In this document: positions 38,026-55,703 of the stretch, piece by piece | Layout: each line of letters starts with the position of its first letter | Position numbering within the stretch: position 1 is the first letter of the stretch | DNA from: Muribaculaceae bacterium | GTDB taxonomy: Bacteria; Bacteroidota; Bacteroidia; Bacteroidales; Muribaculaceae | Reading direction: 5' to 3' | NCBI GenBank assembly: GCA_017620635.1 | Contig: JAGAUV010000027.1 | Span: forward strand, 46,301 to 110,300 | Length of the DNA stretch: 64,000 nt | Program-made: the position numbers and the translations under genes | The notes under the pieces: model-generated | What the model was told of the DNA's origin: nothing | Databases searched by the model: none | What the model saw: the letters and a program-made list of their open reading frames with translations, nothing else

Positions 38026-40002
38026 ATGTCTTTGCGCAGTTTAACGAATGAAGAAATATCCCAGCTCAAAAGCCGCGGCTGCCGCGCAACAGAGTGGATA
38101 TCGGTTTCTGTAGGAGAAGGCTTTGATCCATCGCATCTTAGCAACGTTGAATTTTCAGGAAAAGTCATCATAGGTTCCACCGAGGGCAAATTTCATCTCC
38201 CCGGAGGACTTGTACGCCATGCCGGCATCAGCAATGTTACACTGCATAATGTAACGATAGGCAACGGCGTGTATATAAACGATATAGCCAACTATATAGC
38301 CAACTACACCATAGGCGACGGCGCGTTCATAGAGAACGTCGACAACATAGTATCGACCCTGAACAGCAGTTATGGCATCGGTACCGAGGTGTCGGTGCTC
38401 AACGAGACCGGCGGCCGCGAAGTGCCTATCTATGAGAAAATGTCGGCACAGACCGCCTATCTCATAGCGATGTACCGCAACCGCCGCGATATGGTGGAGA
38501 AGCTTATCACATCGATCAAGGTGCATGCCGGCAGTCTCTACGGGCAGCCCGGCAGCATAGGCAAGAAGTCACACATTGTCAATGCCGGCGAGATCTGCAA
38601 TGTCATAATAGGCGACTATGCTGTAGTAGACGGCGCCACACGCCTTGCCGAAGGCACCATCACATCATCGAAGGACGACCCTGTGCATGTTGGCCGCGAT
38701 GTCATAGCCGAGGGCTTTGTCTTCGCCGCCGGAGCATGTGTAGATGACGGTGCCGTCGTACATCACTGCTTCATCGGCCAGGCAACGCATCTGACACATC
38801 TCTTCTCGGCACACGATTCTCTCTTCTTCGCCAACTGCGCATGCGAGAACGGCGAGGCCGCCGCGATCTTTGCCGGACCGTATACGGTAACGATGCACAA
38901 GTCGAGCCTGCTTATCGCCGGAATGTTCTCGTTCCTTAATGCCGGTTCGGGGTCCAACCAGAGCAACCACATGTACAAGCTCGGTCCTATTCATCAGGGC
39001 GTTGTGGAGCGCGGCTCAAAAACGACGAGCGACTCCTACATATTGTGGCCGGCCAAGATCGGCGCATTCTCGCTTGTAATGGGCCGCCACGTCACACACC
39101 CCGACACCTCACGTCTGCCATTCTCTTATATCATAGAGAACCGAGGCGAGTCGTTCCTCGTACCCGGCATCAACCTCCGCAGCGTAGGCACGATACGCGA
39201 CGCTCAGAAGTGGCCCAAACGCGACAAACGCCGCGAGAAAAAGCTGCTCGACAATATCAACTTCAACCTGCTCAGCCCCTACTCCGCCGGCAAGATGCTC
39301 GACGGCATACATCTGCTCAACGAGCTTGAACGCACGGCAGGCCTCACAGCCGAACGCTTTGCCTTCCAGACAATGACCATCGAGGCCCATGCCCTGCGCA
39401 AAGGCCGCAAGCTCTACGCCATGGCCATAGACAAGTTTATGGGCAATTCGGTAATAAACCGCCTCGGCAAGACTCCCATCTCCGATAAAGGCGAGCTAAG
39501 CCGACGCCTCAAGCCCACACACAAGGCAGGGGCAGGCCAATGGGTAGACGTGTGCGGACTTTTCGCGCCCAAAAGCGAGGTAGACAAAGTATGCGACGAT
39601 ATCTGCTCTGACAAAATAGAAAATCTCGAGGAGCTCGAAAGCCGCTGGAAGAAGCTGCATGCCGACTACTACGACATGGAATGGACCTGGGTATGCGACA
39701 AGATCGAAGAATGGTACGGCAAATCGATAGAGAATATTACTGTTGATGACGTGCGCGAGATTATAGCACGCTGGCTCAAGAGCGTGACAAGCCTCAACAG
39801 CATGCTGCTCGAGGATGCAAACAAGGAATACAGCCTAAAATCACGCACAGGCTTCGGCATCGATGATCCGGGCATGAGCGCCGACGACGACTTCATATCG
39901 GTACGAGGCAGCTACGACGCCGATCCGTTCGTAGAAATGGTCAAAGAACATTCCATCATCAAAACCGCACTGGCAGAATCAGCTCTGGCACTTCTACCCT
40001 GA
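38026..40002 (+). CDS. DUF4954 left-handed beta-helix protein
   Basis: 658-residue cytosolic protein of a Bacteroidota family without known function. Residues about 40-390 contain imperfect hexapeptide repeats (IGNGVYI, IGDGAFI, IGTEVSV, VGRDVIA), the left-handed beta-helix seen in acyltransferases and sugar nucleotidyltransferases. A candidate catalytic His lies in VVHHCFIG and AHDSLFF near 245-270. The C-terminal 250 residues are alpha-helical and charged. There is no signal peptide. Homology suggests a transferase in surface-sugar biosynthesis, but that is inference. It is followed after 16 bases by the UpxY-type gene, so they are likely cotranscribed. Confidence 0.8.
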   Translation: MSLRSLTNEEISQLKSRGCRATEWISVSVGEGFDPSHLSNVEFSGKVIIGSTEGKFHLPGGLVRHAGISNVTLHNVTIGNGVYINDIANYIANYTIGDGAFIENVDNIVSTLNSSYGIGTEVSVLNETGGREVPIYEKMSAQTAYLIAMYRNRRDMVEKLITSIKVHAGSLYGQPGSIGKKSHIVNAGEICNVIIGDYAVVDGATRLAEGTITSSKDDPVHVGRDVIAEGFVFAAGACVDDGAVVHHCFIGQATHLTHLFSAHDSLFFANCACENGEAAAIFAGPYTVTMHKSSLLIAGMFSFLNAGSGSNQSNHMYKLGPIHQGVVERGSKTTSDSYILWPAKIGAFSLVMGRHVTHPDTSRLPFSYIIENRGESFLVPGINLRSVGTIRDAQKWPKRDKRREKKLLDNINFNLLSPYSAGKMLDGIHLLNELERTAGLTAERFAFQTMTIEAHALRKGRKLYAMAIDKFMGNSVINRLGKTPISDKGELSRRLKPTHKAGAGQWVDVCGLFAPKSEVDKVCDDICSDKIENLEELESRWKKLHADYYDMEWTWVCDKIEEWYGKSIENITVDDVREIIARWLKSVTSLNSMLLEDANKEYSLKSRTGFGIDDPGMSADDDFISVRGSYDADPFVEMVKEHSIIKTALAESALALLP

Positions 40003-40018
40003 CAAGAAACATATCAGC

Positions 40019-40576
40019 ATGGATACAGAACAGAAGGAAGAGACGACCGAAGAGATGCAATGGTTCGTTATGCGCGACCTCAAGAGGCCCAATGCCCTGA
40101 GGCCGGCCTATATCGAACTGTCGGATGCCGGTTTTGAAGTGTTCACGCCCCTGCGCAATATAGTGCAGGAGCGCAACGGCATACGCAAGCGAGCCAGGGT
40201 ACCGTTTATCAGCGACCTTCTATTTGTACACAGCACCCGGTCGGCGCTCGACCCGGTTGTCAACGCTACGCCCACGCTTCAGTACAGATTTGCACGCGGC
40301 GCCGCAGCCAACACCCCCATGGTGGTCCGTACCAGCGACATGACGCGCTTTATCTGCGCCGTGAACACGGTTGAGAATCCGCTCTTCTATACCATCGACG
40401 AGATATCGCCCAAAATGCTACAGCGCCATATACGCATAGTAGGCGGCCAGCTCGACGGCTACGAAGGCATATTGCTCACAGTGAGGGGATCGAAAAAGAA
40501 AAGACTGCTTGTAGAAATACCGGGGTTTATAGCTGCCGCGATAGAGGTAGAGCCACAGTTTATACAGCTCGTATAG
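40019..40576 (+). CDS. UpxY-type NusG-like transcription antiterminator
   Basis: 185-residue NusG paralogue. The N-terminal NGN domain begins WFVMRDLKRPNALRPAYIEL and continues through FTPLRN and PFISDLLFVH. A shorter C-terminal KOW-like domain is indicated by RIVGGQLDGYEGILLTVRG. In Bacteroides, UpxY proteins open capsular polysaccharide operons by antitermination. Here no capsule genes follow: downstream lies only the small MBL-like gene and then a convergent operon. It is therefore an orphan, either regulating the gene after it in cis or acting elsewhere. Confidence 0.85.
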   Translation: MDTEQKEETTEEMQWFVMRDLKRPNALRPAYIELSDAGFEVFTPLRNIVQERNGIRKRARVPFISDLLFVHSTRSALDPVVNATPTLQYRFARGAAANTPMVVRTSDMTRFICAVNTVENPLFYTIDEISPKMLQRHIRIVGGQLDGYEGILLTVRGSKKKRLLVEIPGFIAAAIEVEPQFIQLV

Positions 40577-40607
40577 GCACCGGATTCAAACCAAAGTGCC
40601 GTGTAAT

Positions 40608-40628
40608 ATGTTACTCTCTAAGTAACAT
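40608..40628. repeat. Perfect inverted repeat in the UpxY/MBL-like gap
   Basis: ATGTTACT and AGTAACAT flank a 5-base spacer (CTCTA), ending 13 bases before the start codon of the 40642 gene. No T-tract follows, so it looks more like an operator or a 5'-leader hairpin than a terminator. Confidence 0.6.
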
Positions 40629-40641
40629 AAATACATAGGCC

Positions 40642-41193
40642 ATGCAAGTAACAAAACTCGAACGCTCGGGCTATATGCTCGAATATCCTACATTCTTTCT
40701 CGTATTCAACTACACACGCGAAGAGGGTCGCAAACTCGAAAAAGCACTGAGCCAGGACCCTGACAAAGCTGTAGTTTTTCTGGTAACACACAATCACAGA
40801 AGTGCCTTCGACAGCGACATCTTCAACCTGGCGCAGAATCACAGACGTGTGTATGTGCTCAGCAACGATATCAGCGGCCAAGAGGTACCCGACACGGCAC
40901 CTGTCGCATGGATGAGCGGCGGCGACAGCATAGAGAATGTCGCCGATAAAGATATCAGAATCGAAGCCGACAAGGACGGAGACAAGGGTGTGGCATATTA
41001 TGTTACCACTCCCGATTCGACAGTATTCTATGGCGGTGCGCTCGGCACTGACAAGACACGCCAGCAGACAGATGTACTGATCGAACGTATAGCCTCGTCA
41101 CATAACAAGGTAGGCTTAGCCATGGTAAACGAGAATATCGCCGACTCCTTCGCCGCCAAAATCGCGACAGCCAGACTTCTGACTTACGAATAA
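40642..41193 (+). CDS. Metallo-beta-lactamase-like protein with a degenerate metal site
   Basis: 183-residue cytosolic protein. Its layout follows small UlaG-like MBL hydrolases: an SGYMLEYPTFFLVFNY opening, a VVFLVTHNHRSAFDSDIF segment and a late STVFYGGALG. The metal-binding motif expected as HxHxDH reads H50-N-H52-R-S54-A55, so the Asp and third His are replaced. The later Asp expected in the xxGDL turn is replaced by Ala. It should therefore not bind two metals in the usual way, and its activity is doubtful; a binding or regulatory role is possible. It overlaps the convergent 41184 gene by 10 bases and is preceded by the inverted repeat at 40608-40628. Confidence 0.65.
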   Translation: MQVTKLERSGYMLEYPTFFLVFNYTREEGRKLEKALSQDPDKAVVFLVTHNHRSAFDSDIFNLAQNHRRVYVLSNDISGQEVPDTAPVAWMSGGDSIENVADKDIRIEADKDGDKGVAYYVTTPDSTVFYGGALGTDKTRQQTDVLIERIASSHNKVGLAMVNENIADSFAAKIATARLLTYE

Positions 41194-43436
41194 GCCTTAC
41201 TCAGAATGGCACCGGGGAAATAGTGAGCGAGAATGTCGCGACAGGTCATGCCACGGGCACCCATGAGTGCGGCACCTATCTGGCATAATCCCACACCATG
41301 CCCCCAGCCGGCGCCGTGGAGTGTAAACGCCGCCGGCAGCCCTGTGGCGTCGGCCGGCGAAGCCTCCACAACAAAAGCTGAGCTATAGAGATGGCTCTGA
41401 GAAAGGGTGCGTCGTATCTCGAGCTCTTTTCCGATTATCATAGTGCGTTTTGTACCGACAATACGCAGGCGCACGATACGTCCGGAGGTGCCACGCTCTA
41501 CCGGTTCGAGAGCCACAATACCGCCAAAATCCACACCCGAACGCTCACGGATAAGTCCGGCGAGCCGGGCCTGGGTGTAATCGACTCTCCATCTGTAGAA
41601 ATCGTGAGTCTCGCGGTCATAATTGTTCAATACCTGTCCGAGTATATCGGGGTCGGAGGTATTGCAATATGCCGCCGGACGCCCGAGAATCCATTTACGA
41701 GCGTTTTCCTCTACCCTGAGGTCGGGGAAGTGATCTTCGTCGGCGTCGTCGAGTCGCGCCTCGAGATAGCTGTGATGCACCGGCTCCCAGCAGTTCTCGA
41801 ACTCCTCGAACACACCGCCGCAGCACTTCGAGAAACGGGCATCGCAGACAGCCCCGTTTTCATCAACAAGCACAAGTCCCCGGGTAGCATCGATGGCCTC
41901 GCCCACCGCCGGAGTTGTCTGGCGCGTGACTCCCTGATAGCGCTGGCAATGGTCGTCGGCACACACATCGAAGTTGAGATGATCCTCACGGTCGTACCAT
42001 TTTACGATCTCATCCTCAGTCACAGTGCACGGACACGGCCCGGCACTGCCCGAGCGGCTCTTGCGTATCTGTGCTATAAGCCAGCTGCGCGATATCACGG
42101 CATGTGCCATAAGGAACTCGCGTCCGGCGGTAGCGCTCATCTCCGACGATATGACACTCTTCAGATAGTCTTCGAGCGAAATAAGATTTATGAGCGTCAG
42201 GCTGTCGCCTTCGACTATAATCTTGAGCGAGCGGATAAAGCGCTGCCGTTCCTTCCGCTCCCAGTGGAAATTAACTCCGATTACCACATCGTCGACCTCG
42301 AAAGAGCAATCGCTGTCGGCCGTATCGAGTACGATCTCATCATACTCGCATCCCTGCCACAATATCCTGCGGTCTGGGGTAATAGTGAATACCTGCGGCC
42401 CGGTGGCACAGACGCCCGTAGCTGTGGTATAAGTATTGTTTAGCCCGACATGCAGCTCGCAGCCCGAGACAATACCGACACTTATTACCGGCTCTACCGA
42501 TATGTCGCAAACAAGTTTGCCGACAATCACGTCGATATCCTTCTGCGACAGGCACAGTTCATCGATAACACGGCGGATGATGTCAGCATCCATACGCTCG
42601 AAATCCTCAAGACGCGGAGTGATGAATACACCGCCCATATCGACGGACGCAGGGCTAAGCATCATACATCCGTCGCCTTCGGTGCCGTAGAACGACGGCC
42701 TGTGACGCCGACGAGGCACCACCACAAGTCGTGTGCCGTAGTCCGTCGCGTAGGCCAACATATTGATCATCGGCTCATAATCGCCGTCGGCGACAGGGAG
42801 AGCCTTTAAGAGAGTCGAGAACATGGAAGCGCCGTCGGCCGGCGTGGCGCTGTCGATGACAAACATCCTTAAGGGAAGAGAATCAATCAGCGACAGACGC
42901 GCGGAATCGTCTTGGCGCAACAGCTTCATTTCGGCGGCCTCGATATTGCGCTGCAGAGGCAAGAAGTCGCTGTTGCCGGCCTGGAAATGGAAATGGTCAG
43001 GCGCCGACGCTCCACAACGCGGACCATTGTAGAACACTGTATAGCCGACAAGGTCGACAGCCAGCCGCAGCATATCGGCGACAGCACCTTCGCATGCCTG
43101 CGGCACATGACTGTCGCGCGGAATAGTAAGATGTCGCGGAAAGATAGGGAAGGGATTGATGAGTATGGTATATCCGTCGCCCCATTCAATGCCGCTCTGC
43201 ACAGCCGGGCGGTTCCCGGCACACAGGAAGCAAGGGCGAGCCTTGATGGATGCGGCATCGACTTTAGCCCCGGAGGAGACTGCACGCGCAGGATTGAACT
43301 GCACCTTGAAATACATGCCGTCGACATCAAATTCCTTTACCTTTACGCCGGCCAGAGCCGCATAGTTGGCCGCGGCATCTGGCCACCGGCCAAGCTGCCT
43401 GTCGATCAGGCTTTCCACGTCCTTGGTAAGACTCAT
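41184..43436 (-). CDS. DUF4922 (GalT/HIT-like) - SpoIID/LytB fusion protein
   Basis: 750-residue fusion. The N-terminal half (about 1-330) is DUF4922, related to galactose-1-phosphate uridylyltransferase and Ap4A phosphorylase: a CxxC pair (C69, C72), the NPFPIFPRHLTIP segment and an HxHxQ active-site-like motif (H148, H150, Q152). The C-terminal half (about 420-745) is SpoIID/LytB: LKSVISSEMSATAGREFLMAHAVISRSW and GAGWGHGVGLCQIGA. SpoIID proteins elsewhere are lytic transglycosylases or amidase enhancers acting on peptidoglycan outside the membrane. This protein, however, has no visible signal peptide. Its start codon shares one base with the stop of the upstream GT gene (TAATG), so it is the last gene of a three-gene operon. 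Confidence 0.83.
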   Translation of the reverse strand: MSLTKDVESLIDRQLGRWPDAAANYAALAGVKVKEFDVDGMYFKVQFNPARAVSSGAKVDAASIKARPCFLCAGNRPAVQSGIEWGDGYTILINPFPIFPRHLTIPRDSHVPQACEGAVADMLRLAVDLVGYTVFYNGPRCGASAPDHFHFQAGNSDFLPLQRNIEAAEMKLLRQDDSARLSLIDSLPLRMFVIDSATPADGASMFSTLLKALPVADGDYEPMINMLAYATDYGTRLVVVPRRRHRPSFYGTEGDGCMMLSPASVDMGGVFITPRLEDFERMDADIIRRVIDELCLSQKDIDVIVGKLVCDISVEPVISVGIVSGCELHVGLNNTYTTATGVCATGPQVFTITPDRRILWQGCEYDEIVLDTADSDCSFEVDDVVIGVNFHWERKERQRFIRSLKIIVEGDSLTLINLISLEDYLKSVISSEMSATAGREFLMAHAVISRSWLIAQIRKSRSGSAGPCPCTVTEDEIVKWYDREDHLNFDVCADDHCQRYQGVTRQTTPAVGEAIDATRGLVLVDENGAVCDARFSKCCGGVFEEFENCWEPVHHSYLEARLDDADEDHFPDLRVEENARKWILGRPAAYCNTSDPDILGQVLNNYDRETHDFYRWRVDYTQARLAGLIRERSGVDFGGIVALEPVERGTSGRIVRLRIVGTKRTMIIGKELEIRRTLSQSHLYSSAFVVEASPADATGLPAAFTLHGAGWGHGVGLCQIGAALMGARGMTCRDILAHYFPGAILSKAYS

Positions 43437-44911
43437 TATTTCCTGTTCTTATTTAACGCGATACGGGCTTTAAGCTCCCATGTGCGTATACGGTCTTTAT
43501 AGAGATTGTTTGCGTTTGTCTTGTTTATGTCAAGAGCGTGGTCGGAGTTGTCCTCCCAGCGGCGACACAGGTACACGACATCATATACACGCCCTATCTG
43601 ATGATGACGCGAGAACGCGAGCCCGAGGGCGTAGTCCTCGCCATAGCTTGTGTTAGGCACATTGATACGGCGCAGCAAGGGAGTGTAGAAAGCTCTCGGC
43701 GCTCCGAGACCGTTGATTCGCAGGGCATTGTTGCGGCCGTTGTCGGGTGTCCACTCCTTATGGTCGATCACGCCGGGCGGAATGGTGTTCATGTCAATGT
43801 CGGTCAGGCAGTACGTGCCGACAACCATTGCCGAGTTGTTGTCGTAGAAAGCTTTGACCATCTTGGCGAGAGTATTCTCATCGGCATACACATCGTCGCT
43901 GTCGAGCTGGACGCAGAATTTACCGGCCTCAGGATGATTGGCGCCGACATTCCAGCAGCCTCCAATGCCAAGATCGTCACGCTCAGGCACTATGTGTATC
44001 ACACGGCTGTCGGCGGTAAATTCCTCGATAACCTCGCTTGTGCCGTCGGTGCTGTGATTGTCGATTATAATAAGGTTGAACGGGAAGTCTGTCTTTTGGC
44101 ATAGCACGCTGCGGATAGCATCGCGTATCGTACGGACACGGTTACGCACAGGGATTATTACCGAAGCCTCATATTCGAAATCGCCCTGATCGAAGGCAAC
44201 AGGCTCAAATTCAGGCTCGAGATAAGCGCCGACAGCTTTGAGGTGCTCGGTGCAGGCCTGCTCCATCTCAATCTGCACGGCACGGTTTTTAGGGTCGACA
44301 TATGCGAAATGAGCCTCTCCGCCAAGCGTCTCTTCAGGTTTGAACCGGGTATAGAGGTATTCGCTGATATGGACGAGAGGGGCTACTCGGCTGAGACGCA
44401 GACGTAGGTCGTAGAGACCTGCATAGCTGTAATCCTTGTCGATACCTGCGGCCGCAGTCTTAAGCGATGCTGTGTCGAACATCAAGAGAGGGCCGAAATC
44501 GAAGTCGTCGCGCAACGAACCTTCCTGATAGTCGATGACTGGGTTGTTAGACCGCACACCGCCCGACACTGTATAGTAGTCGGCATAGACCATGCCGGCT
44601 GCACTGTCGGAGCATATACGCATCATACGCTCAAGGGCCAGATAGCCGGGAGCAAGTCTGTCGTAAGCAGTGGCGACGAGTGTATATCGGCTATCGGCGG
44701 CATCGGCTATAGCGCGCGCAGTCGCCGACGAGTTGAGCGAGTCGATATATATTACATCACAGCCGGGCACCGGCTTCAGCGATGTATCGGCCGAAAGGAG
44801 CGTGATCTTAGCTACCGCCGGAGAATTTTTAAATTCGTCTATAGAATAGCTTATCCGGCTCTCGTCGAGAACAGGGATAAATACATGTATCTTTTCTTTC
44901 ATTTCAGTCAT
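43436..44911 (-). CDS. Double-domain family 2 glycosyltransferase
   Basis: 491-residue cytosolic protein with two GT-A-like units. Residues about 8-225 resemble a diverged GT-A domain (MVYADYYTVSGG). Residues about 247-480 are a standard GT2 domain, opening with ASVIIPVRNRVRTIRDAIRSVL, with a DxD-type metal-binding LDSDD at 336-340 and a GED motif around 425. The donor and acceptor cannot be predicted. It overlaps the upstream amidase-like gene by ATGA and shares one base with the downstream DUF4922-SpoIID gene, so the three are translationally linked. Confidence 0.82.
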   Translation of the reverse strand: MTEMKEKIHVFIPVLDESRISYSIDEFKNSPAVAKITLLSADTSLKPVPGCDVIYIDSLNSSATARAIADAADSRYTLVATAYDRLAPGYLALERMMRICSDSAAGMVYADYYTVSGGVRSNNPVIDYQEGSLRDDFDFGPLLMFDTASLKTAAAGIDKDYSYAGLYDLRLRLSRVAPLVHISEYLYTRFKPEETLGGEAHFAYVDPKNRAVQIEMEQACTEHLKAVGAYLEPEFEPVAFDQGDFEYEASVIIPVRNRVRTIRDAIRSVLCQKTDFPFNLIIIDNHSTDGTSEVIEEFTADSRVIHIVPERDDLGIGGCWNVGANHPEAGKFCVQLDSDDVYADENTLAKMVKAFYDNNSAMVVGTYCLTDIDMNTIPPGVIDHKEWTPDNGRNNALRINGLGAPRAFYTPLLRRINVPNTSYGEDYALGLAFSRHHQIGRVYDVVYLCRRWEDNSDHALDINKTNANNLYKDRIRTWELKARIALNKNRK

Positions 44912-47808
44912 TTGAAAAAGTCGAGGATTTGTTTCATCAAGTGTTCGCGCCGGTCTTCTTCCTTTATAGTCTCGAAGGGGAAACCTATCACTACAGTTTT
45001 ATAAGTACCGCTGTCGAAGGCCGAACCGGCAGATATGTTGTTTTCGTCGTAACGCAGCACGGTAGCTCCACGCGATTTGTCGGCCGGCATAACACCATCG
45101 GGCGATTCGACGGCATAGCAGTCGCTACCGAGAGTCTGATTGAAGGTATAGTCGCCCTTGCCGAAAGCCTTGAAGCGAGAAGGCACCTGGTATGCGCCAC
45201 CTTCAACGGCCGCACGGCTCTCGCGCCAGGCATAGCCGAGTATATTACGGGCAAAAGCCTGATCGGCTGCAGCAGTCTCGGGAGTGGAGTTTTCATTATC
45301 CCACAGGTCTGTCGCCACATACGAGCCAGAGACAAAGAAATCAGTGCCTGTAGCGGCCAGTGCCTTGATGCGCTGTTGCATTTCCGGCGTGAAGGTCTTG
45401 CAATCCGTACCGAATGCACCACGTCCGCGTCGGATCTCTTTCTGCTTGCCGAAAACGATATCGACTATAGCCGGCGAATCCGACGAGCCGACAAAAGCCT
45501 CGGCGCTGCTCGACACGAATCCGTGACCGGCAGCCGCGATCGCTTCGCCATGGATATATACGTAATCGAAAGTGTTGCCGGCAATTACCTTTGTCTCATA
45601 ATTCGAGCGCGAGTCTCCGAAGCCGGTATTGTCATCGTCGACCCATGGACGGTCGCGTCGGAACTCGAACTGCCTGCCGGTAAAGGATATATCCTGAATA
45701 TACGGCACACCGCCGTCCTTTTCATTATCGAAACCGGCAAGAGCTCCGCTGTCGAAACGGTCAGGAGCACTCACGCGTGTGAATCCGTTGACAATCGTGA
45801 TCTGTTTGCCCGGTTTGTTGCAAAGTGCCAGCACCTCGCTCGGGAAAGCGGTGCCGCCGTCGTTACCGGCGATTATCCTGTATGAATGTATATCGCTGTC
45901 GCTTACAGTCGTAGTCCATGTCGGCTCTGTCACGCGAGCCACCTGACGGAATGCGCCTTTGCCTACACGTTCTTCCACAATATAATATGCAGGAGTAGCC
46001 GAAGTCTCGGTTTTGTCCTTATGTTCCGCCCAAGTAAGGGTATAGCGGTCGTTACCTGAGCTGCTTATGGCAAATGCCCTTACAGGCAGAGGCTGCACCA
46101 CATACGTGCGGCCGTCGCGGTTGGCGAGGAACTTGAGTATGCCTTTGTAGACAGCGCGCGACACAACGAAACGGAAAGCCGGGTCGAGACCGTAACTCAT
46201 GTCGGCGAAGTTCTGATGCGAAAGGAGCTCAAGCAACATGGCCGGGACCTCGGGAGTACGTGCTTCGGCATATTGCTTGTCCCACATGCCGCGCCGTGCC
46301 CATTCAGGCTCGAATGTAGATCTTACATCGTTGACGATATTTGTCATCACAAGATCGGTATAGTCACGCGAGGCAAGGCGGTCGCTGCCGTTTGCGAGAC
46401 GGTTCCCGGCAGTGCTGTAGATACCTAAGGTACCGACAATGGTATCGCCCATGAATGTACCAGCATCGCTGTGAAATGCGAAACTCAGATCGACAGGAAT
46501 ACCCAGACCATCTTTACCGGGCAGCATCGACGAGCCGCCGGCGATCCAGTTGACCCACATGCCACGGCTACGGTAATCATCGTTGTAGTCGTTTTCGTAC
46601 TCTGTGGGCGTGTACACCGAGTCGGGAGCGCCGGCCCACTGCAGGAAGTATCTGGCGCCTTCGGTAAAGCGCGGATAACCGCTTACGGTATACTCGAAGT
46701 CCACATCGGGCGAGGCAAGAGTCGGCTTACGTCCGACATTACCCATACCGCCACCTATCTTCACGGCATCGGCGCAGACAGTGCTGCCCTCGGCGCCGTC
46801 GTTCACAAGCTCGACCACAGCCTTGCCGTCAAAGGGGAATGAACCGAGATATATCCATGTGCCGCCGCCCATTTTCTGGTTAACCCTGAAAGAATGATCC
46901 CCGTCGCTTGCCTTGACACGGTAGAGGGCCGCATCGCTGCTCGAAGGTGTAGTGGCATAGCTTACATAGACGGCATATGTGCCCGGCGCGGAGATGTCGG
47001 CGTTCCACTCGGCCGTACCGTCGGCAAAACTTATTGCAGTACCGGCATCGAAAGGCCTGTCGCCGTTCTCGAGAACACGTTTTTTGTATGCGAAACCTTT
47101 TGTCGACTTCTTGTCCTTGCCGTCGTGGATAGCGAACGAGCCCTGTGTGAAGTCGGTATCGTTATTGTCGACTATTATTTCCACTGTATTGAGGTCACGC
47201 TCGCGCGGAGTCATCACATATGCCCCGGCATTCTCGAGCATGGGTATCAGGAAAGGCAGCACATAGCTCTGTGTGTAGAGGTCCTCGACAGTACCGAACA
47301 TCCTCGCCCTCTGCCATTCCCAGCGGTTGAGATTCTGCTCGAAATACCAGCCGTGGCTCTGCCACAGGGCTATATTCTTTCCGTCAAGTCCTGACGAAGC
47401 CGGCTCACGCCCCTCGCGCACGACAAAGGGTGTCTGCTCGGTCGGCCCCACATTCTTTTTCTTGCCAAAGAGAACGAGACGGTCGAGATTCTTGTTCTTG
47501 GCCGTTATGTTTACCTCATAGCGGCTGTAATTCGCCCCGAGGGCCTTGCGGATATCCGATTTCATGTCGGCCAGACGCGACGAGGTAAACGGTATGTAGG
47601 CACCGTTCTCGCTGAGCTTGACTGTTATGACACGCTTTTTCGTATTTATCGCTACCGATTTCACATCGACATCGCCGAAGCCGGTAACTCCCGGCAGATA
47701 GTCCTCTATCACAGCGGCTACCGCATCTTCGCGCACACCTGCCGACAGCGGCTGACCGACAACAGAGAGCATCAAGAGCAGACAAGCCGGTAAGTTAATA
47801 TATTTCAT
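44908..47808 (-). CDS. Secreted amidase_3-like protein with golvesin insert ('xanthan lyase' type)
   Basis: 966 residues from the ATG at 47808 (MKYINLPACLL), with a signal peptide ending near residue 23. Relatives are often labelled xanthan lyase, but the core looks like zinc N-acetylmuramoyl-L-alanine amidase: H152 (WQSHGW), E175 (TVEDLY, then the PMLENAGAYV-TPRE signature), H446 (AFHSDAG) and E527 (MLLELLSHQNF) match its metal and catalytic positions. A golvesin-type beta-domain (about 210-355) is inserted between the first and second pair. An FN3-like domain (about 570-670) and a 300-residue C-terminal domain of unknown type follow. It is the first gene of the operon and has a consensus promoter. 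Confidence 0.78.
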   Translation of the reverse strand: MKYINLPACLLLMLSVVGQPLSAGVREDAVAAVIEDYLPGVTGFGDVDVKSVAINTKKRVITVKLSENGAYIPFTSSRLADMKSDIRKALGANYSRYEVNITAKNKNLDRLVLFGKKKNVGPTEQTPFVVREGREPASSGLDGKNIALWQSHGWYFEQNLNRWEWQRARMFGTVEDLYTQSYVLPFLIPMLENAGAYVMTPRERDLNTVEIIVDNNDTDFTQGSFAIHDGKDKKSTKGFAYKKRVLENGDRPFDAGTAISFADGTAEWNADISAPGTYAVYVSYATTPSSSDAALYRVKASDGDHSFRVNQKMGGGTWIYLGSFPFDGKAVVELVNDGAEGSTVCADAVKIGGGMGNVGRKPTLASPDVDFEYTVSGYPRFTEGARYFLQWAGAPDSVYTPTEYENDYNDDYRSRGMWVNWIAGGSSMLPGKDGLGIPVDLSFAFHSDAGTFMGDTIVGTLGIYSTAGNRLANGSDRLASRDYTDLVMTNIVNDVRSTFEPEWARRGMWDKQYAEARTPEVPAMLLELLSHQNFADMSYGLDPAFRFVVSRAVYKGILKFLANRDGRTYVVQPLPVRAFAISSSGNDRYTLTWAEHKDKTETSATPAYYIVEERVGKGAFRQVARVTEPTWTTTVSDSDIHSYRIIAGNDGGTAFPSEVLALCNKPGKQITIVNGFTRVSAPDRFDSGALAGFDNEKDGGVPYIQDISFTGRQFEFRRDRPWVDDDNTGFGDSRSNYETKVIAGNTFDYVYIHGEAIAAAGHGFVSSSAEAFVGSSDSPAIVDIVFGKQKEIRRGRGAFGTDCKTFTPEMQQRIKALAATGTDFFVSGSYVATDLWDNENSTPETAAADQAFARNILGYAWRESRAAVEGGAYQVPSRFKAFGKGDYTFNQTLGSDCYAVESPDGVMPADKSRGATVLRYDENNISAGSAFDSGTYKTVVIGFPFETIKEEDRREHLMKQILDFFK

Positions 47809-47847: not shown

Positions 47848-47879
47848 CAAAGTTAACACATCGCGCTGTAATACCCAAA
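47848..47879 (-). promoter_or_regulatory. Bacteroidales promoter for the amidase-GT-SpoIID operon
   Basis: On the minus strand TTTG (47879-47876) is 20 bases from TAACTTTG (47855-47848), and the start codon at 47808 is 39 bases further on. It diverges from the fabG promoter. Confidence 0.65.
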
Positions 47880-49951: not shown

Positions 49952-52900
49952 CTATCTAAAAATTTTTGAAAGATAGTTTTCGCGGAATTTCTGTAAAAGT
50001 TCCCAGAACGAAGGCACGAAAAGTGTGCCGAGGACAGCATTCACAGCCATACCGAAAACGACTGCCGTACCGAGCGATATCCGGCTTGCCGCTCCGGCCC
50101 CGGTGGCGAAGATCATAGGCATGACACCGAAGACAAAAGCCATAGCCGTCATCAGAATAGGACGCAGCCTTACATTGCCGGCCGACGATGCCGCCTGGCG
50201 TATAGGCTGGCCAGCCTTGCGGTAGTCCATGGCGTACTCCACTATCAGAATCGCATTCTTCGCCGCCATGCCGAGGAGCAATATGATGCCGATCTGAGTA
50301 TAGATACTCACACTCTGGCTGAGGAAGATACAGCCCATAATGGCACCCAGTACCGCTGTCGGTGTAGTCGCCACCACAGCCACGGGATCGGTCCACGACT
50401 CATATTGCGCGGCAAGCACGAGGATAGTGATGATCACTGCGAAAAGAAGCGACATCGTGATCGTAGTGCCCGACTGTGTTTCCTGCAGAGCCTCGCCGGT
50501 CCATGCATACCCGAAACTCGGGCCAACGGTATTCTTCATAATATCTTCCATAGCCCTGATACCGTCCGACGAACTTATGTTGGCATTGAGAGTGCCCGTG
50601 ACAGATGCTGTAGTGTACATGTTGTAGCGACTTACCGTAGGCTGCCCCATGACTTCCTCCACAGACCCGAACGATGCGAATGGCACCATGTCGCCCTTAT
50701 CGTTCCGCACCGAAAGGCTGAGCACGCTCTCAACTTTACTACGAGCATCGGCCGCAGCACTCAAAAGCACCTGATAAGTACGGCCGAATTTGACAAAATC
50801 GTTCACATAGTCCGACCCCATGAAGGCCGACAGAGTAGAATAAACGCTTTCGAGAGTGAGGCCGTAGAGTTTTACTTTGTCGCGATCTATCTTAAACTGA
50901 TACTGAGGCACCTGCCCCTGATACAAGGAGGTAATCTGCTTAAGCTCGGGATAGTCTGCCGCCGCACGCTGAATGTCCGCTATTGTCTGGGCTATTTCCT
51001 TAGCTCCGAGATTGTTGATGTCGAGAAGCTGCATCTCGAGACCCGACGACATGCCGAGGCCCGGGATAGCAGGCGGATTGACGGAAAACACTATCGCCTC
51101 CTGTATGCCGGCCGCCAATCTGTCGACCTCTCCTATGACGACGTCTATACCGTTTTTACGACCTTTACGATCTTTCCATGGCTCGAGGACGACAAACATC
51201 GAGGCAAGGTTGCTCCCGGCACCACCGCCCAGGAAAGACTGGCCGGAGACAGATATCACATCCTTGACCTGAGGCAGCTGCTTGATGTCGCCCGACAGCT
51301 TCCGCACGACCGAATCGGTACGTTCGAGCGACGCCCCTGTCGGCAACTGCACGGAAGTAAGGAAATAGCCCATATCCTCCGATGGCACATAGCTTTTCGG
51401 CCAACGCATGAAGCCCCAGAAAGCCAGCACACACAGCGCGGCGAATATGACCATGGCCATTACCGGCCGGCCGAGCAGGCGGCCGACGGTGGCATTATAG
51501 AACTGACGTATCTTTTCGAAGCCTGCATCGAACCAGCGGTACACACAGAATTTACGCTTGCCGCTATCAGGCTTGAGGAACAAGGCGCACATGGCAGGAG
51601 TGAACGTGAGGGCATTGAAGCCGGAGAATGCGGTCGACACGGCTATTGTGAGGGCGAATTGCTTGTAGAGCTCTCCTGTTATGCCTGAAATGAATGCCGT
51701 AGGCACAAATACCGACAGCAACACCAGCACCTCGCCGACGATAGGCCCCGTAAGCTCTTCCATCGCCTGCTCGGCGGCCTGTGCCGGAGTGGCTCCGCCC
51801 TTGTCGAGTATACGGCTCACATCCTCCACCACAACTATGGCATCATCCACCACAATAGCGATGGCAAGCACGAGGCCGAAAAGAGTAAGCGTATTCAAGG
51901 TAAAGCCCATTACCTTCATTACCGCGAAAGTGGCGATCAATGATACCGGGATAGTGATCATCGGTATTATCACAGCCCTCCAGTTCTGCAGGAACAGGAG
52001 TATTACGAGCATAACAATCAGCGTAGTCTCGAGAAAAGTGACCAGCAGGTCATCGATCGACGCCGACACGAAATCGGTTGTGTCGAGTATTATGCGGTAG
52101 TCGACACCCTCGGGAAAATATTGCTTCAGCTCTTCCAGCTTTTTCTCGACTGTCGAGGCCACCTTCATAGCATTGGCTCCCGGCAGCTGATATATGCCAA
52201 TAAGGCCTGCATCCTCGCCCGACACATGCGATATCATCGAATAAGAGTTGCTGCCGAGATCGACTCCGGCGATATCCCTGAGGCGCAGTAGCGCTCCGTC
52301 CTCGCCCGAACGTATCACGATATTGCCGAACTGCTCGGCATCAGCAAGACGTCCGCGAGCCGTAAGAGTGTACTCGAACTGCTGACCGCCGCCGACAGGA
52401 GGCGCTCCGACCGAACCGGCCGACACTTCCATGTTCTGGCTCTCTATAGCGGCTGTCACATCAGCCGGAGTCACACCCCTCACGCGCATCTTCTCGGGGT
52501 CGAGCCACACACGCATGGAGTAACTGCCCGAACCGAAAGCCTGCACCTGCCCTACTCCGTCGAGACGGGCAAGCTCGTCGACTATGCTCAGCTGGGCATA
52601 GTTTGTGAGATACAGACCGTCGTAGCGGCCCGGATCTTCCGACTCGAGAGCCACGAACAGAATAATATCCGACGAGCGCGACATGACATTGACACCCTGC
52701 TGCTTGACTGACGCAGGCAGCACCGGCTCGGCCTGGGCCACACGGTTCTGCACCTTCACGGCCGCCATGTCGAGATCCGTACCGTTCTCAAATGTTATCT
52801 CAAGACTATACGAGCCATCCGAACCCGATGTGGACGACATGTACATCATGCCCTCCACGCCATTGACCTGCTGCTCGATAGGCACACCCACCGCTTCGGC

Positions 52901-53074
52901 CACAGTCTGAGCGTCGGCGCCAGGATAAGTGGCCATTACAAAGACTGTCGGCGGCGTGATGTCAGGATACTGGGCGACAGGCAGGGTTCTGACCGTGAGT
53001 ATACCGGCCAGAAGCATCAGTATCGCCAGCACAGTGGCAAATATAGGCCTCTTTATAAAAAACTTGCTGAACAT
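49952..53074 (-). CDS. RND multidrug efflux transporter, inner-membrane pump (HAE1 family)
   Basis: 1040-residue proton-driven pump of the AcrB/MexB type. It has twelve transmembrane helices, two large periplasmic loops and the canonical N-terminus MFSKFFIKRPIFATVLAILMLLAGI. The proton-relay pair is visible in VVDDAIVVVEDV of helix 4 (about residues 407-408). HAE1 members export drugs, bile salts and detergents across both membranes together with an adaptor and an outer-membrane channel, which are the two genes just upstream (3-base gap). It is the last gene of the operon. Confidence 0.95.
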   Translation of the reverse strand: MFSKFFIKRPIFATVLAILMLLAGILTVRTLPVAQYPDITPPTVFVMATYPGADAQTVAEAVGVPIEQQVNGVEGMMYMSSTSGSDGSYSLEITFENGTDLDMAAVKVQNRVAQAEPVLPASVKQQGVNVMSRSSDIILFVALESEDPGRYDGLYLTNYAQLSIVDELARLDGVGQVQAFGSGSYSMRVWLDPEKMRVRGVTPADVTAAIESQNMEVSAGSVGAPPVGGGQQFEYTLTARGRLADAEQFGNIVIRSGEDGALLRLRDIAGVDLGSNSYSMISHVSGEDAGLIGIYQLPGANAMKVASTVEKKLEELKQYFPEGVDYRIILDTTDFVSASIDDLLVTFLETTLIVMLVILLFLQNWRAVIIPMITIPVSLIATFAVMKVMGFTLNTLTLFGLVLAIAIVVDDAIVVVEDVSRILDKGGATPAQAAEQAMEELTGPIVGEVLVLLSVFVPTAFISGITGELYKQFALTIAVSTAFSGFNALTFTPAMCALFLKPDSGKRKFCVYRWFDAGFEKIRQFYNATVGRLLGRPVMAMVIFAALCVLAFWGFMRWPKSYVPSEDMGYFLTSVQLPTGASLERTDSVVRKLSGDIKQLPQVKDVISVSGQSFLGGGAGSNLASMFVVLEPWKDRKGRKNGIDVVIGEVDRLAAGIQEAIVFSVNPPAIPGLGMSSGLEMQLLDINNLGAKEIAQTIADIQRAAADYPELKQITSLYQGQVPQYQFKIDRDKVKLYGLTLESVYSTLSAFMGSDYVNDFVKFGRTYQVLLSAAADARSKVESVLSLSVRNDKGDMVPFASFGSVEEVMGQPTVSRYNMYTTASVTGTLNANISSSDGIRAMEDIMKNTVGPSFGYAWTGEALQETQSGTTITMSLLFAVIITILVLAAQYESWTDPVAVVATTPTAVLGAIMGCIFLSQSVSIYTQIGIILLLGMAAKNAILIVEYAMDYRKAGQPIRQAASSAGNVRLRPILMTAMAFVFGVMPMIFATGAGAASRISLGTAVVFGMAVNAVLGTLFVPSFWELLQKFRENYLSKIFR

Positions 53075-53077
53075 GGC

Positions 53078-54190
53078 TTATCGTCCGCTTACAGGTTCTA
53101 CAGTCATACCGTCGCGCACTTTGAGCAAGGCTCTTGTCACATAACGGTCCTCGGGGCCGATGCCTTTCTTCACTATCCTCATGGAGTCTCCGACAAGATC
53201 GCCGACAATCACAGGCGTATATACCACGCGGTCGGAATCATTGACCACATAGAGATATTTGCCGAGCTGATCGGTCGACAGTGCCGCATCCCTGACAAGG
53301 ACAGCATGTGGCTCGTTGCCAACGGGCAGATCGATGCTCACAAGCATACCGCTGCGAAGCTCGCCATACGGGTTATCTATCGTAGCCTGGAGCTGCAGGG
53401 TACCTGTCGAAGTATTGACCTGTGGCGACATATAATCGAGCGAAGCGGTATAGCTGTGACCGGGATTCTCGGAGAATTTGACAGGTATATGCCGGTAGTC
53501 CACGGCATTGTCAACAATATTTTTCTGCAAGCCGGCCATAGCCTCGGCATCGTCGACAGAGAAGTCGGCAAGAATTTGTGCATCCTCATAGATCGACGCC
53601 AGCTCTACCGGCATGCCCTCGCCGCCTACATATGCGCCCACATCGTACACAGGGCTTGACACATGGCCGTCGAATGGAGCGCGGATAGTACAATACGACA
53701 GTTGAGTCTCGGCTGTCTTCAGTGCAGCTCTTGCCGACAGCACCTCAGCCTTGCACTCCTCGAAAGCGCTGTGCCCCTGCTCCACCTCCATACGGCTTAC
53801 AGCGTCACTCTTCAAAGCCTCGCTCAGCGCCTCATAATGTTTACGGGCATATTCGAGACTCGCCTCGGCACTCTCAAGCGCACTGCGCGCCCTGTCGACG
53901 GCGTCGCGATAGTTGCCCGATTCGATAGTGAAGAGAACTGTCCCTTTGCGCACGTAATCGCCCGACTTGTAGTTCTTTGACTCAAGATAGCCGTTGACAC
54001 GCGCCACGAGCTGCACCTCGCGGTTGGCGCTGAGCACTCCGGGATATGTCTTATATAATGTGACAGAGTCGACTACCGGAAGCACCACGTCAACGCGCTC
54101 GGCCTGCCCGGACGCAGACTCATGATTCCTGTGACAAGATGCGGCACATACAGCCGCCGCAACAAGCGCCAATGTTAGATATCTGTTCAT
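53078..54190 (-). CDS. RND efflux periplasmic adaptor (membrane fusion protein)
   Basis: 370-residue lipoprotein: a signal sequence with Cys19 (CAASC) is followed by a beta-barrel, lipoyl and coiled-coil hairpin arrangement. The lipoyl halves are indicated by VQLVARVNGYLE-KNYKSGDYVRKG and YCTIRAPFDGHVS, with the alpha-hairpin between (about 90-150). It links the HAE1 pump to the outer-membrane channel. Nine bases separate it from the channel gene and 3 from the pump gene. Confidence 0.94.
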   Translation of the reverse strand: MNRYLTLALVAAAVCAASCHRNHESASGQAERVDVVLPVVDSVTLYKTYPGVLSANREVQLVARVNGYLESKNYKSGDYVRKGTVLFTIESGNYRDAVDRARSALESAEASLEYARKHYEALSEALKSDAVSRMEVEQGHSAFEECKAEVLSARAALKTAETQLSYCTIRAPFDGHVSSPVYDVGAYVGGEGMPVELASIYEDAQILADFSVDDAEAMAGLQKNIVDNAVDYRHIPVKFSENPGHSYTASLDYMSPQVNTSTGTLQLQATIDNPYGELRSGMLVSIDLPVGNEPHAVLVRDAALSTDQLGKYLYVVNDSDRVVYTPVIVGDLVGDSMRIVKKGIGPEDRYVTRALLKVRDGMTVEPVSGR

Positions 54191-54199
54191 AATAGTATG

Positions 54200-55588: not shown

Positions 55589-55703
55589 GAAAAATAGTCG
55601 AATATGAATTGTAACAAACGAGCAGAATGGCTTGGAATCCATTTAACTATTTTTAATATTTCATCTGTCGATTACGGGTGCTCGCACTTGGGCGAGGCGT
55701 TTT

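Follow-up and report, generated by a model that had tools for sequence, protein, structure and literature searches.

The operon described here, three genes on the minus strand of the window (the whole stretch of DNA that was analysed, 64,000 nucleotides from a Muribaculaceae bacterium), very probably belongs to a cytoplasmic pathway for the salvage of peptidoglycan sugars. It encodes a secreted amidase-like protein (gene A), a glycosyltransferase (GT; gene B) and a fusion of a DUF4922 domain with a SpoIID domain (gene C). We assign it to cell-wall sugar salvage rather than to envelope remodelling because in relatives its genes stand beside those for AmpG, NamZ, MurT, MurK and MurQ, and because they are orthologous to the start of the ampG-murTKQ operon of Tannerella forsythia. 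SpoIID is a family of cell-wall-cutting enzymes that are normally exported. Judged from its sequence, the type found in this module should be cytoplasmic, and it may be the enzyme that opens the 1,6-anhydro ring of salvaged anhydroMurNAc, a proposal to which we give an even chance. The operon itself is already published; the SpoIID clade and its proposed role are the new part, and neither was found described in the open-licence literature.

The genes and the upstream promoter element are as follows.

44908-47808, minus strand: gene A, a secreted protein resembling amidase_3 and interrupted by a Golvesin_C domain, 966 amino acids from the ATG at 47808
43436-44911, minus strand: gene B, a GT2 glycosyltransferase of 491 amino acids, no export signal seen
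41184-43436, minus strand: gene C, the DUF4922-SpoIID fusion, 750 amino acids, no export signal seen
47848-47855, minus strand: TAACTTTG, a -7-like promoter element, with TTTG 20 bases upstream at 47876-47879

These coordinates, together with the junctions (ATGA between A and B, TAATG between B and C), bear out the tight minus-strand operon of three genes proposed in a first-pass annotation of this DNA. The consensus promoter proposed there stands in part: TTTG-N20-TAACTTTG, whose last element lies 47 bases before the gene A ATG, fits the Bacteroides promoter consensus, but the window has 11 matches, both strands counted, to the looser pattern TTG-N18-24-TAnnTTTG, so that the promoter counts as weak evidence. 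AmpG, NamZ, MurT, MurK and MurQ were not found beside the operon within the window. Since this genome carries AmpG and MurQ on other contigs (C26 and C22, respectively), their linkage to the operon is one seen in relatives.

The amidase nature claimed for the secreted gene A product is supported by comparison, the four residues on which it was based being identical in 16/16 aligned orthologues.

47353-47355, minus strand: H152, predicted zinc ligand
47284-47286, minus strand: E175, predicted zinc ligand
46471-46473, minus strand: H446, predicted zinc ligand
46228-46230, minus strand: E527, predicted catalytic Glu
46756-47025, minus strand: Golvesin_C (Pfam PF25275, E = 9.3e-22), splitting the amidase core in two

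An N-terminal hydrophobic signal is usual in gene A and its orthologues according to a hydrophobicity scan. Searched whole against Pfam, gene A yields Golvesin_C and a sub-threshold match to Amidase_3 (14.3 bits; cut-off 27); in the joined amidase cores Amidase_3 is the sole Pfam family in 4/4 cases, at 16.8 to 22.6 bits against the same cut-off. All five PDB sequences that match the joined gene A core at E < 0.5 are amidases or similar cell-wall hydrolases. Gene A resembles the Amidase_3 amidases CwlV, CwlD and LytH in having the four H/E residues at the expected places, but differs from them in falling below the Pfam cut-off, in carrying Golvesin_C in mid-core and in possessing further C-terminal domains. 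The earlier warning that a 'xanthan lyase' label would hide an amidase was apt, as the T. forsythia orthologue Tanf_08345 bears the name 'xanthane lyase' in the available part of the published account (PMC5388701). Titin-like PDB matches of the amidase profile (A4) lie within a stretch of fibronectin type and are uninformative.

Gene B belongs to GT2 on the basis of its profile match (PF00535, 78.1 bits, residues 250-379 in the second half of the protein), the sole GT domain recognised by Pfam, and of the DxD and ED motifs, each invariant in 34/34 sequences. Of the two GT-A domains proposed in the first-pass annotation, Pfam thus recognises one.

43892-43903, minus strand: DSDD (DxD motif), residues 337-340 of gene B
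43634-43639, minus strand: E425-D426 (ED motif) of gene B

Gene C comprises two regions with the following features.

42972-43409, minus strand: DUF4922 domain, residues 10-155, GalT/Ap4A-phosphorylase-like (Pfam PF16269, E = 1.8e-60)
42981-42995, minus strand: HFHFQ (HxHxQ motif), residues 148-152, with H, H and Q invariant in 27/27
41187-42506, minus strand: SpoIID region, residues 311-750 (TIGR02669, E = 6.5e-42)
42141-42143, minus strand: E432, equivalent of the catalytic Glu, invariant in 33/33 signal-less and 13/13 secreted SpoIIDs
41943-41963, minus strand: CADDHCQ (SpoIID zinc motif), residues 492-498, invariant in 33/33

DUF4922, which in the available literature was found named in two papers on plants only, shows the HxHxQ motif and the homology of GalT/APA2 nucleotidyltransferases; a CxxC upstream of HxHxQ is also invariant, and the DUF4922 profile matches Ap4A phosphorylase 2 in the PDB (4i5t, E = 3.7e-6). 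Although these motifs and the 4i5t match are shared with the HIT-like transferases Ap4A phosphorylase, GalT and GDP-L-galactose phosphorylase, DUF4922 is distant from them and in many genomes is fused to GT and/or SpoIID. The SpoIID domain reported earlier in gene C is present with its catalytic and zinc residues intact, and matches PF08486 (75.7 bits; cut-off 23), TIGR02669 (144.3 bits; cut-off 83.3) and the SpoIID structures 4rwr, 5i1t and 5txu. The catalytic Glu was identified from work on SpoIID (PMC6934232), and CADDHCQ fits the C. difficile zinc motif yCxdxxHCQ (PMC6934232).

Export was judged by an N-terminal hydrophobicity scan with a threshold of 1.8, which is not a trained predictor. 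Values lay below 1.8 in 33/34 stand-alone SpoIIDs of the module type in the order sample, in 59/61 named module-type SpoIIDs and in 7/7 from the phylum sample, read stop to stop, and above it in 12/14 other SpoIIDs. The scan thus revealed no export signal on the DUF4922-SpoIID fusion or on its stand-alone orthologues, for which reason the module-type SpoIID is predicted to be cytoplasmic and gene C is regarded as a SpoIID-domain protein that is not of the known extracytoplasmic kind. On the same ground the suggestion that SpoIID and amidase act together on envelope glycan was not sustained, and a periplasmic partnership of the two was set aside. The module-type SpoIIDs form a clade on a long branch, apart from secreted SpoIID. 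With one divergent sequence (L103) left out, 105 columns are conserved in no fewer than 32 of the 33 signal-less sequences, and 52 of these are rare (at most 2/13) in secreted Bacteroidales SpoIIDs. The separate secreted clade that Bacteroidales also hold lies mostly beside SurE-LpxB. The order sample includes 52 SpoIID-positive genomes without the module; the main SpoIID was fetched and inspected for ten of these, one of which (G233) has the signal-less type, and an eleventh (G211) contributed a weak second SpoIID copy, for which no match was obtained. The SpoIID lytic transglycosylases of B. subtilis, B. anthracis (4rwr), C. difficile (5i1t) and Chlamydiales share with gene C a full SpoIID/LytB domain, the catalytic Glu and the clostridial-type zinc motif, whereas the module SpoIID is set apart by the lack of a visible signal peptide, the long-branch clade and fusion to nucleotide-sugar enzymes.

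A neighbourhood comparison confirmed that the three genes are linked across Bacteroidales; relatives keep them together, far beyond chance. Module-type SpoIID occurs with GT and DUF4922 in 38/38 genomes. Among 80 named loci, which include Bacteroides, Prevotella, Parabacteroides, Tannerella and Muribaculaceae, 11 fuse DUF4922 with SpoIID, seven fuse GT with DUF4922 and six fuse all three, while in six Proteiniphilum loci GT is followed by SpoIID, DUF4922 not lying in between. Through these fusions SpoIID is joined to enzymes of a cytoplasmic type. The amidase is near the module in 12/18 module genomes with a strong gene A match, a count from which 12/31 genomes with weak or fragmentary matches only were left out. 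In 32/38 module genomes a fetched locus of at most 20 kb that holds a module gene also carries AmpG, and so do 73/80 named loci, many of which are truncated at a contig end; the other neighbours are NamZ (40 of the 80), a MurK-like kinase (34), MurT/NagX-like proteins (31) and MurQ (28). Genome-wide, AmpG was scored in 38/38 module genomes of the order sample and 22/22 of the phylum sample, versus 14/110 and 25/126 without the module, at a cut of > 60 bits that was picked after the scores had been seen, in a family with paralogues of which 0/148 matches reach the NCBIfam cut-off of 350. This cut dropped 4/56 order and 19/66 phylum genomes, and the window's own genome counts in both samples. 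For MurQ (TIGR00274), 32 of 141 matching genomes were kept and 109 set aside for weak matches, which scored 85 bits in one case and were listed below 45 in the rest; the DUF4922 counts exclude G027 and G136, two phylum genomes whose matches are weak.

In T. forsythia the orthologues, Tanf_08345 to Tanf_08360, follow the same order (amidase, GT, DUF4922, SpoIID), with identities of 46% (1014 aligned columns), 66%, 46% and 57%, respectively. According to the accessible portion of its description, they are co-transcribed with ampG and murTKQ in an operon (Tanf_08345 to Tanf_08385) published as one for muropeptide/MurNAc scavenging, and bear the labels 'xanthane lyase', 'glycosyltransferase' (twice) and 'lytB, amidase enhancer precursor' (PMC5388701). 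There the four shared genes run into AmpG, NamZ, MurT, MurK and MurQ; the window, by contrast, has a single DUF4922-SpoIID gene, and AmpG and MurQ are carried by other contigs. The statement that this is not a standard annotated pathway must therefore be narrowed: an orthologous operon is published, and what holds is that its four genes are given no function in that portion (PMC5388701). An amidase with SpoIID in non-sporulating Gram-negatives is likewise known, from excerpts on Chlamydiales (PMC6635528, PMC9928106). T. forsythia AmpG is described as an importer of mainly peptide-free disaccharides (PMC7670621). AnmK is predicted to be absent from this organism, which grows on GlcNAc-anhMurNAc but only poorly on anhMurNAc (PMC7670621), and an excerpt reports that its MurK does not accept anhMurNAc (PMC5790795). 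Because AnmK is not predicted there, its authors left the handling of anhydroMurNAc to be explored (PMC7670621). Cell extract of T. forsythia, which has lytic transglycosylase activity, acted on E. coli peptidoglycan to give end products that still included GlcNAc-anhMurNAc and anhMurNAc (PMC7670621). Complete ring opening was thus not seen, which speaks against the role proposed here, although the extract had not been designed as a test of ring opening. The module SpoIID, present in every module genome examined, is a named candidate for the handling of anhydroMurNAc in the absence of AnmK.

AnmK opens the anhydro ring with ATP, yielding MurNAc-6P. The module SpoIID is proposed for the same metabolic gap, from imported anhydroMurNAc to MurQ, but is unrelated to AnmK and would use water to give MurNAc. 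The window's genome, 88.6% complete, has no match to AnmK (PF03702). In the order sample AnmK occurs in 5/38 module genomes versus 94/110 others, and more weakly in the phylum sample in 8/22 versus 95/126 (p = 6.5e-4). Among AmpG-bearing genomes of both samples, which are not independent, it is found in 13/59 with the module versus 35/39 without (p = 1.9e-11); only 3/98 have neither AnmK nor a module-type SpoIID. By family the counts are 9/30 versus 18/22 (p = 2.7e-4), with the mixed families f13 and f57 counted on both sides. One genome (G181) was scored positive despite a split match, and the control genome, Bacteroides ihuae, matches AnmK, DUF4922 and SpoIID. Strict replacement of AnmK by the module is ruled out and only partial replacement is claimed, as 13/59 module genomes retain AnmK.

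We propose a salvage pathway of five steps, which as a whole could prove right or wrong with equal probability. The secreted amidase, to judge from its family residues, would strip stem peptides off muropeptides, and AmpG would import the peptide-free GlcNAc-MurNAc and GlcNAc-anhydroMurNAc to the cytoplasm, as published for T. forsythia. Cytoplasmic SpoIID would then open the 1,6-anhydro ring with water, probably on the disaccharide, doing the job of AnmK by different chemistry. That the family can use water is indicated by Waddlia SpoIID, whose products from denuded glycan are, in the available excerpt, mainly of the non-anhydro kind (PMC6635528). More speculatively, GT2 running in reverse on a nucleoside diphosphate and DUF4922 might split off GlcNAc as an activated or phosphorylated sugar; these two roles are doubtful. 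Free MurNAc would pass to MurK and MurQ, or to AmgK and MurU, as published for T. forsythia. Taken to its full extent, and rather unlikely in that form, the proposal is that a transglycosylase-type domain has moved to the cytoplasm and been reversed into a 1,6-anhydromuramic acid hydrolase which, with a backward GT and a nucleotide-sugar phosphorylase, in some cases on a single chain, dismantles imported disaccharides without ATP, a third anhydroMurNAc route beside AnmK-MurQ and AnmK-MupP-AmgK-MurU. Such a pathway may explain how many Bacteroidales manage to recycle cell-wall sugars when the usual enzyme is missing; if true, the SpoIID domain gains a second life, and DUF4922, 'xanthane lyase' and 'amidase enhancer' proteins gain a function.

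Other readings of the same genes place them outside salvage. The amidase and SpoIID could both be extracytoplasmic and act in turn on envelope glycan, the one stripping it and the other cutting it, in the manner of SpoIIP and SpoIID in sporulating bacteria, while the GT makes envelope glycan. The signal and amidase residues of gene A, the frequent proximity of amidase and module, and the action of SpoIID on amidase products in C. difficile and B. subtilis (PMC6934232) and, in the excerpt available, on amidase-treated glycan in Chlamydiales (PMC6635528) would suit this reading; it is nevertheless very improbable, since the module SpoIID shows no export signal, is fused to GT and DUF4922 and lies beside AmpG, and the order has a separate secreted SpoIID clade. 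A biosynthetic module is also unlikely: GT and DUF4922 would here make a glycan or glycoconjugate in the cytoplasm, possibly destined for protein glycosylation, SpoIID would trim it, and proximity to AmpG would come from drawing on one supply of amino sugars. The donor and nucleotide motifs of GT and DUF4922 are intact, and the available part of the source describes the T. forsythia operon as related to glycosylation (PMC5388701), but AmpG accompanies the module in every module genome of both samples and is scarce elsewhere, and the module's neighbours are MurNAc catabolic genes.

Salvage with another role for SpoIID fares somewhat better, yet is still not likely: a cytoplasmic SpoIID could stay lytic and cut imported peptide-free oligosaccharides longer than the disaccharide to GlcNAc-anhMurNAc, with something else opening the ring. 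SpoIID prefers denuded glycan (PMC6934232), the substrate that the amidase would supply, and the T. forsythia extract is lytic and leaves anhydro products (PMC7670621). However, AmpG there is said to import mainly disaccharides (PMC7670621), and the products would need an anhydro-sugar enzyme when AnmK is present in only 13/59 module genomes. The ring-opening role proposed for SpoIID draws on the AnmK pattern, which might instead reflect common descent only, the module and AnmK loss marking the same clades while SpoIID acts on another sugar. We consider this quite improbable: the genomes are related, and AnmK and the module occur together in 8/22 of the phylum sample, but the pattern holds in two samples and at family level, and the single genus g137 contains both states, one genome with AnmK (G292) and one without (G200).

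The three overlapping minus-strand genes described in the first-pass annotation (genes A, B and C) were borne out when the sequence was re-read, and their products and surroundings were assigned with Pfam and NCBIfam as follows.

38026-41193, plus strand: DUF4954-DUF6819 protein, UpxY-family antiterminator (40019-40576) and a 183-aa protein, in that order
41184-43436, minus strand: gene C, DUF4922 and SpoIID/LytB
43436-44911, minus strand: gene B, GT2 glycosyltransferase (GT)
44908-47808, minus strand: gene A, Golvesin_C
49952-55642, minus strand: RND efflux operon with AcrB-type pump, HlyD-type adaptor and OEP (Pfam)

By eye, a signal peptide is clear at the N-terminus of A and absent from those of B and C. 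The 183-aa protein gave no match in Pfam or NCBIfam, and the 3' ends of its gene and of the SpoIID gene overlap at 41184-41193. In the genome of the window, an assembly of 2.2 Mb in 77 contigs that is 88.6% complete, a profile search found a single SpoIID match.

The linkage proposed earlier is conserved in Bacteroidales. In a sample of the order (148 genomes, own genome counted), DUF4922 is present in 38 genomes, the GT orthologue (> 360 bits) in the identical 38 and SpoIID of the gene C type in all of them; among ten other order genomes inspected, this SpoIID was found in G233 alone. In a second sample of 148 genomes across the phylum, own genome likewise counted, the own genome and 21 more have the SpoIID type (> 540 bits), and these 21 are precisely the ones in which DUF4922 matches strongly. 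Strong gene A orthologues are present in 18/38 order genomes with this GT-DUF4922-SpoIID module versus 1/110 others. Contigs of named genomes were also scanned, and the best 80 loci of at least 556 confirmed relatives were compared with flanks of up to 9 kb. Of these best 80 loci, 65 contain GT and 63 DUF4922; they include 11 DUF4922-SpoIID fusions, seven GT-DUF4922 fusions and six single chains of 1251 to 1313 aa carrying all three parts (for example in Segatella buccae, locus L187); no GT-SpoIID fusion devoid of DUF4922 occurs among them. These fusions indicate that GT, DUF4922 and SpoIID cooperate in the same compartment. Six Proteiniphilum loci (L147, L151, L153, L159, L162, L163) have GT followed by SpoIID with no DUF4922 in between.

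Which compartment this is can be judged from the SpoIID N-termini, scored by a simple hydrophobicity scan with a threshold of 1.8. Values fall below it in 33/34 fetched stand-alone proteins of the gene C type from the order sample, 59/61 complete ones from the best 80 of at least 556 named loci and 7/7 from the phylum sample; in the exceptions (loci L097, L136 and L198) the first strand of the domain lies at, or a few residues after, the protein start. Among other SpoIIDs 12/14 exceed 1.8, the remaining two scoring 1.55 and 1.71. In a tree, a single branch with support 100/99 parts 33 signal-less from these 14 SpoIIDs, with a long-branch warning from the program. All 46 signal-less and secreted SpoIIDs compared share the catalytic Glu and the three zinc ligands (C, H, C), and 52 of the 105 columns conserved in at least 32/33 signal-less proteins are rare in the secreted type. 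Taken together, the signal-less SpoIID looks enzymatically active and newly placed in the cell, with much change outside these residues. The secreted type adjoins SurE and/or LpxB in 12/14 loci (12/13 without the divergent L103), a conserved pairing in Bacteroidales (L114-L116, L118-L125, L128). A possible third type (G066:C134:25512-26729, G035:C21:493527-494750, G097:C49:5555-6775) scores 154-182 bits with the profile of the signal-less type; these genomes carry the signal-less SpoIID too.

The first-pass annotation suggested envelope glycan remodelling; we favour cytoplasmic salvage of peptidoglycan sugars. The module neighbours AmpG, NamZ, a NagX-like membrane protein, a BadF-type kinase and MurQ. 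By their place, the NagX-like protein corresponds to MurT of Tannerella forsythia and the kinase to MurK. AmpG lies within the module locus in 32/38 order genomes and 73 of the best 80 of at least 556 named loci. Homologues above 60 bits occur in 38/38 module genomes versus 14/110 others (order) and 22/22 versus 25/126 (phylum); none reaches the NCBIfam AmpG cut-off. The T. forsythia homologue has been demonstrated to function as AmpG (PMC5388701). Many homologues, including that of the window's genome (G000:C26:2152-3945), have about 600-640 aa and a mid-protein insert that interrupts the alignment to the AmpG profile near position 167. MurQ is present in 21/38 module genomes versus 11/110 others of the order sample, so that none was seen in 17. 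An FAD-linked oxidase in 17 of the best 80 of at least 556 named loci could consume the D-lactate that MurQ frees. A metallophosphoesterase with a PQQ-type propeller also lies inside the cluster, mostly on the amidase side of GT, i.e. between both (L081, L087, L092:6484-8337, L094; named loci L143, L155-L157, L177, L179, mostly Bacteroides).

The T. forsythia genes Tanf_08345, 08350, 08355 and 08360 are orthologues of the window genes (46, 66, 46 and 57% identity). This operon and its role are already known, its co-transcription with ampG, ybbC (NamZ) and murTKQ being described in PMC5388701. In T. forsythia, growth on fragments of peptidoglycan, GlcNAc-MurNAc and GlcNAc-anhMurNAc among them, depends on AmpG; anhMurNAc supports growth poorly and no anhydro-N-acetylmuramic acid kinase (AnmK) is predicted (PMC7670621). 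T. forsythia MurK does not phosphorylate anhMurNAc (PMC5790795). Another ring opener must exist. From E. coli peptidoglycan, T. forsythia cell extract is reported to yield GlcNAc-anhMurNAc and free anhMurNAc as well as GlcNAc-MurNAc and MurNAc (PMC7670621), and that anhydro products last in the extract argues somewhat against an efficient ring opener.

AnmK, scored by PF03702, occurs in 5/38 module genomes versus 94/110 others of the order sample (p 8e-16), in 8/22 versus 95/126 of the phylum sample (p 6.5e-4), in 13/59 AmpG-bearing genomes (> 60 bits, both samples) with the module versus 35/39 without (p 1.9e-11) and in 9/30 AmpG-bearing families with it versus 18/22 without (p 2.7e-4; tallied by hand from family labels, positive if any member is, two mixed families standing on both sides), all p values being too small because the genomes are related. 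Of the 98 AmpG-bearing genomes, three (G226, G274, G004) lack both AnmK and this SpoIID. AnmK and the module can occur together, as in the control Bacteroides ihuae, which holds AnmK, DUF4922 and SpoIID. That AmpG importers nearly always have AnmK where this SpoIID is absent and mostly lack AnmK where it is present would be odd if this SpoIID were unrelated to anhydro sugars.

SpoIID enzymes form 1,6-anhydroMurNAc out of denuded glycan (PMC6934232), and for the Waddlia enzyme mainly non-anhydro products of denuded glycan are described, i.e. water is admitted (PMC6635528). We infer that the signal-less SpoIID may bind GlcNAc-anhMurNAc and add water, the same chemistry run from the opposite end. 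DUF4922, whose profile matches Ap4A phosphorylase, carries HxHxQ and CxxC, motifs of GalT-like transferases. GT2 enzymes, which are inverting, make beta links of the kind found in GlcNAc-beta-MurNAc; on paper, therefore, a reversed GT step followed by phosphorolysis by DUF4922 is possible and, speculatively, might occur. In the open-licence papers searched we found no report of a cytoplasmic SpoIID clade, of SpoIID fused to GT and DUF4922 or of SpoIID in anhydroMurNAc recycling.

Gene A had been called a zinc amidase, and the residues named for this, H152, E175, H446 and E527, proved invariant in 16/16 orthologues. Whole gene A scores 14.3 bits with Amidase_3 (Pfam cut-off 27), and its core is split by the Golvesin_C domain. 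In 4/4 cores devoid of this insert, Amidase_3 is the sole Pfam family, at 16.8 to 22.6 bits, below the cut-off. Each of the five PDB sequences with E < 0.5 to the gene A core (best E 0.0049) is an amidase or a cell-wall hydrolase of the amidase_3 kind, and on these matches gene A is taken as a diverged amidase_3.
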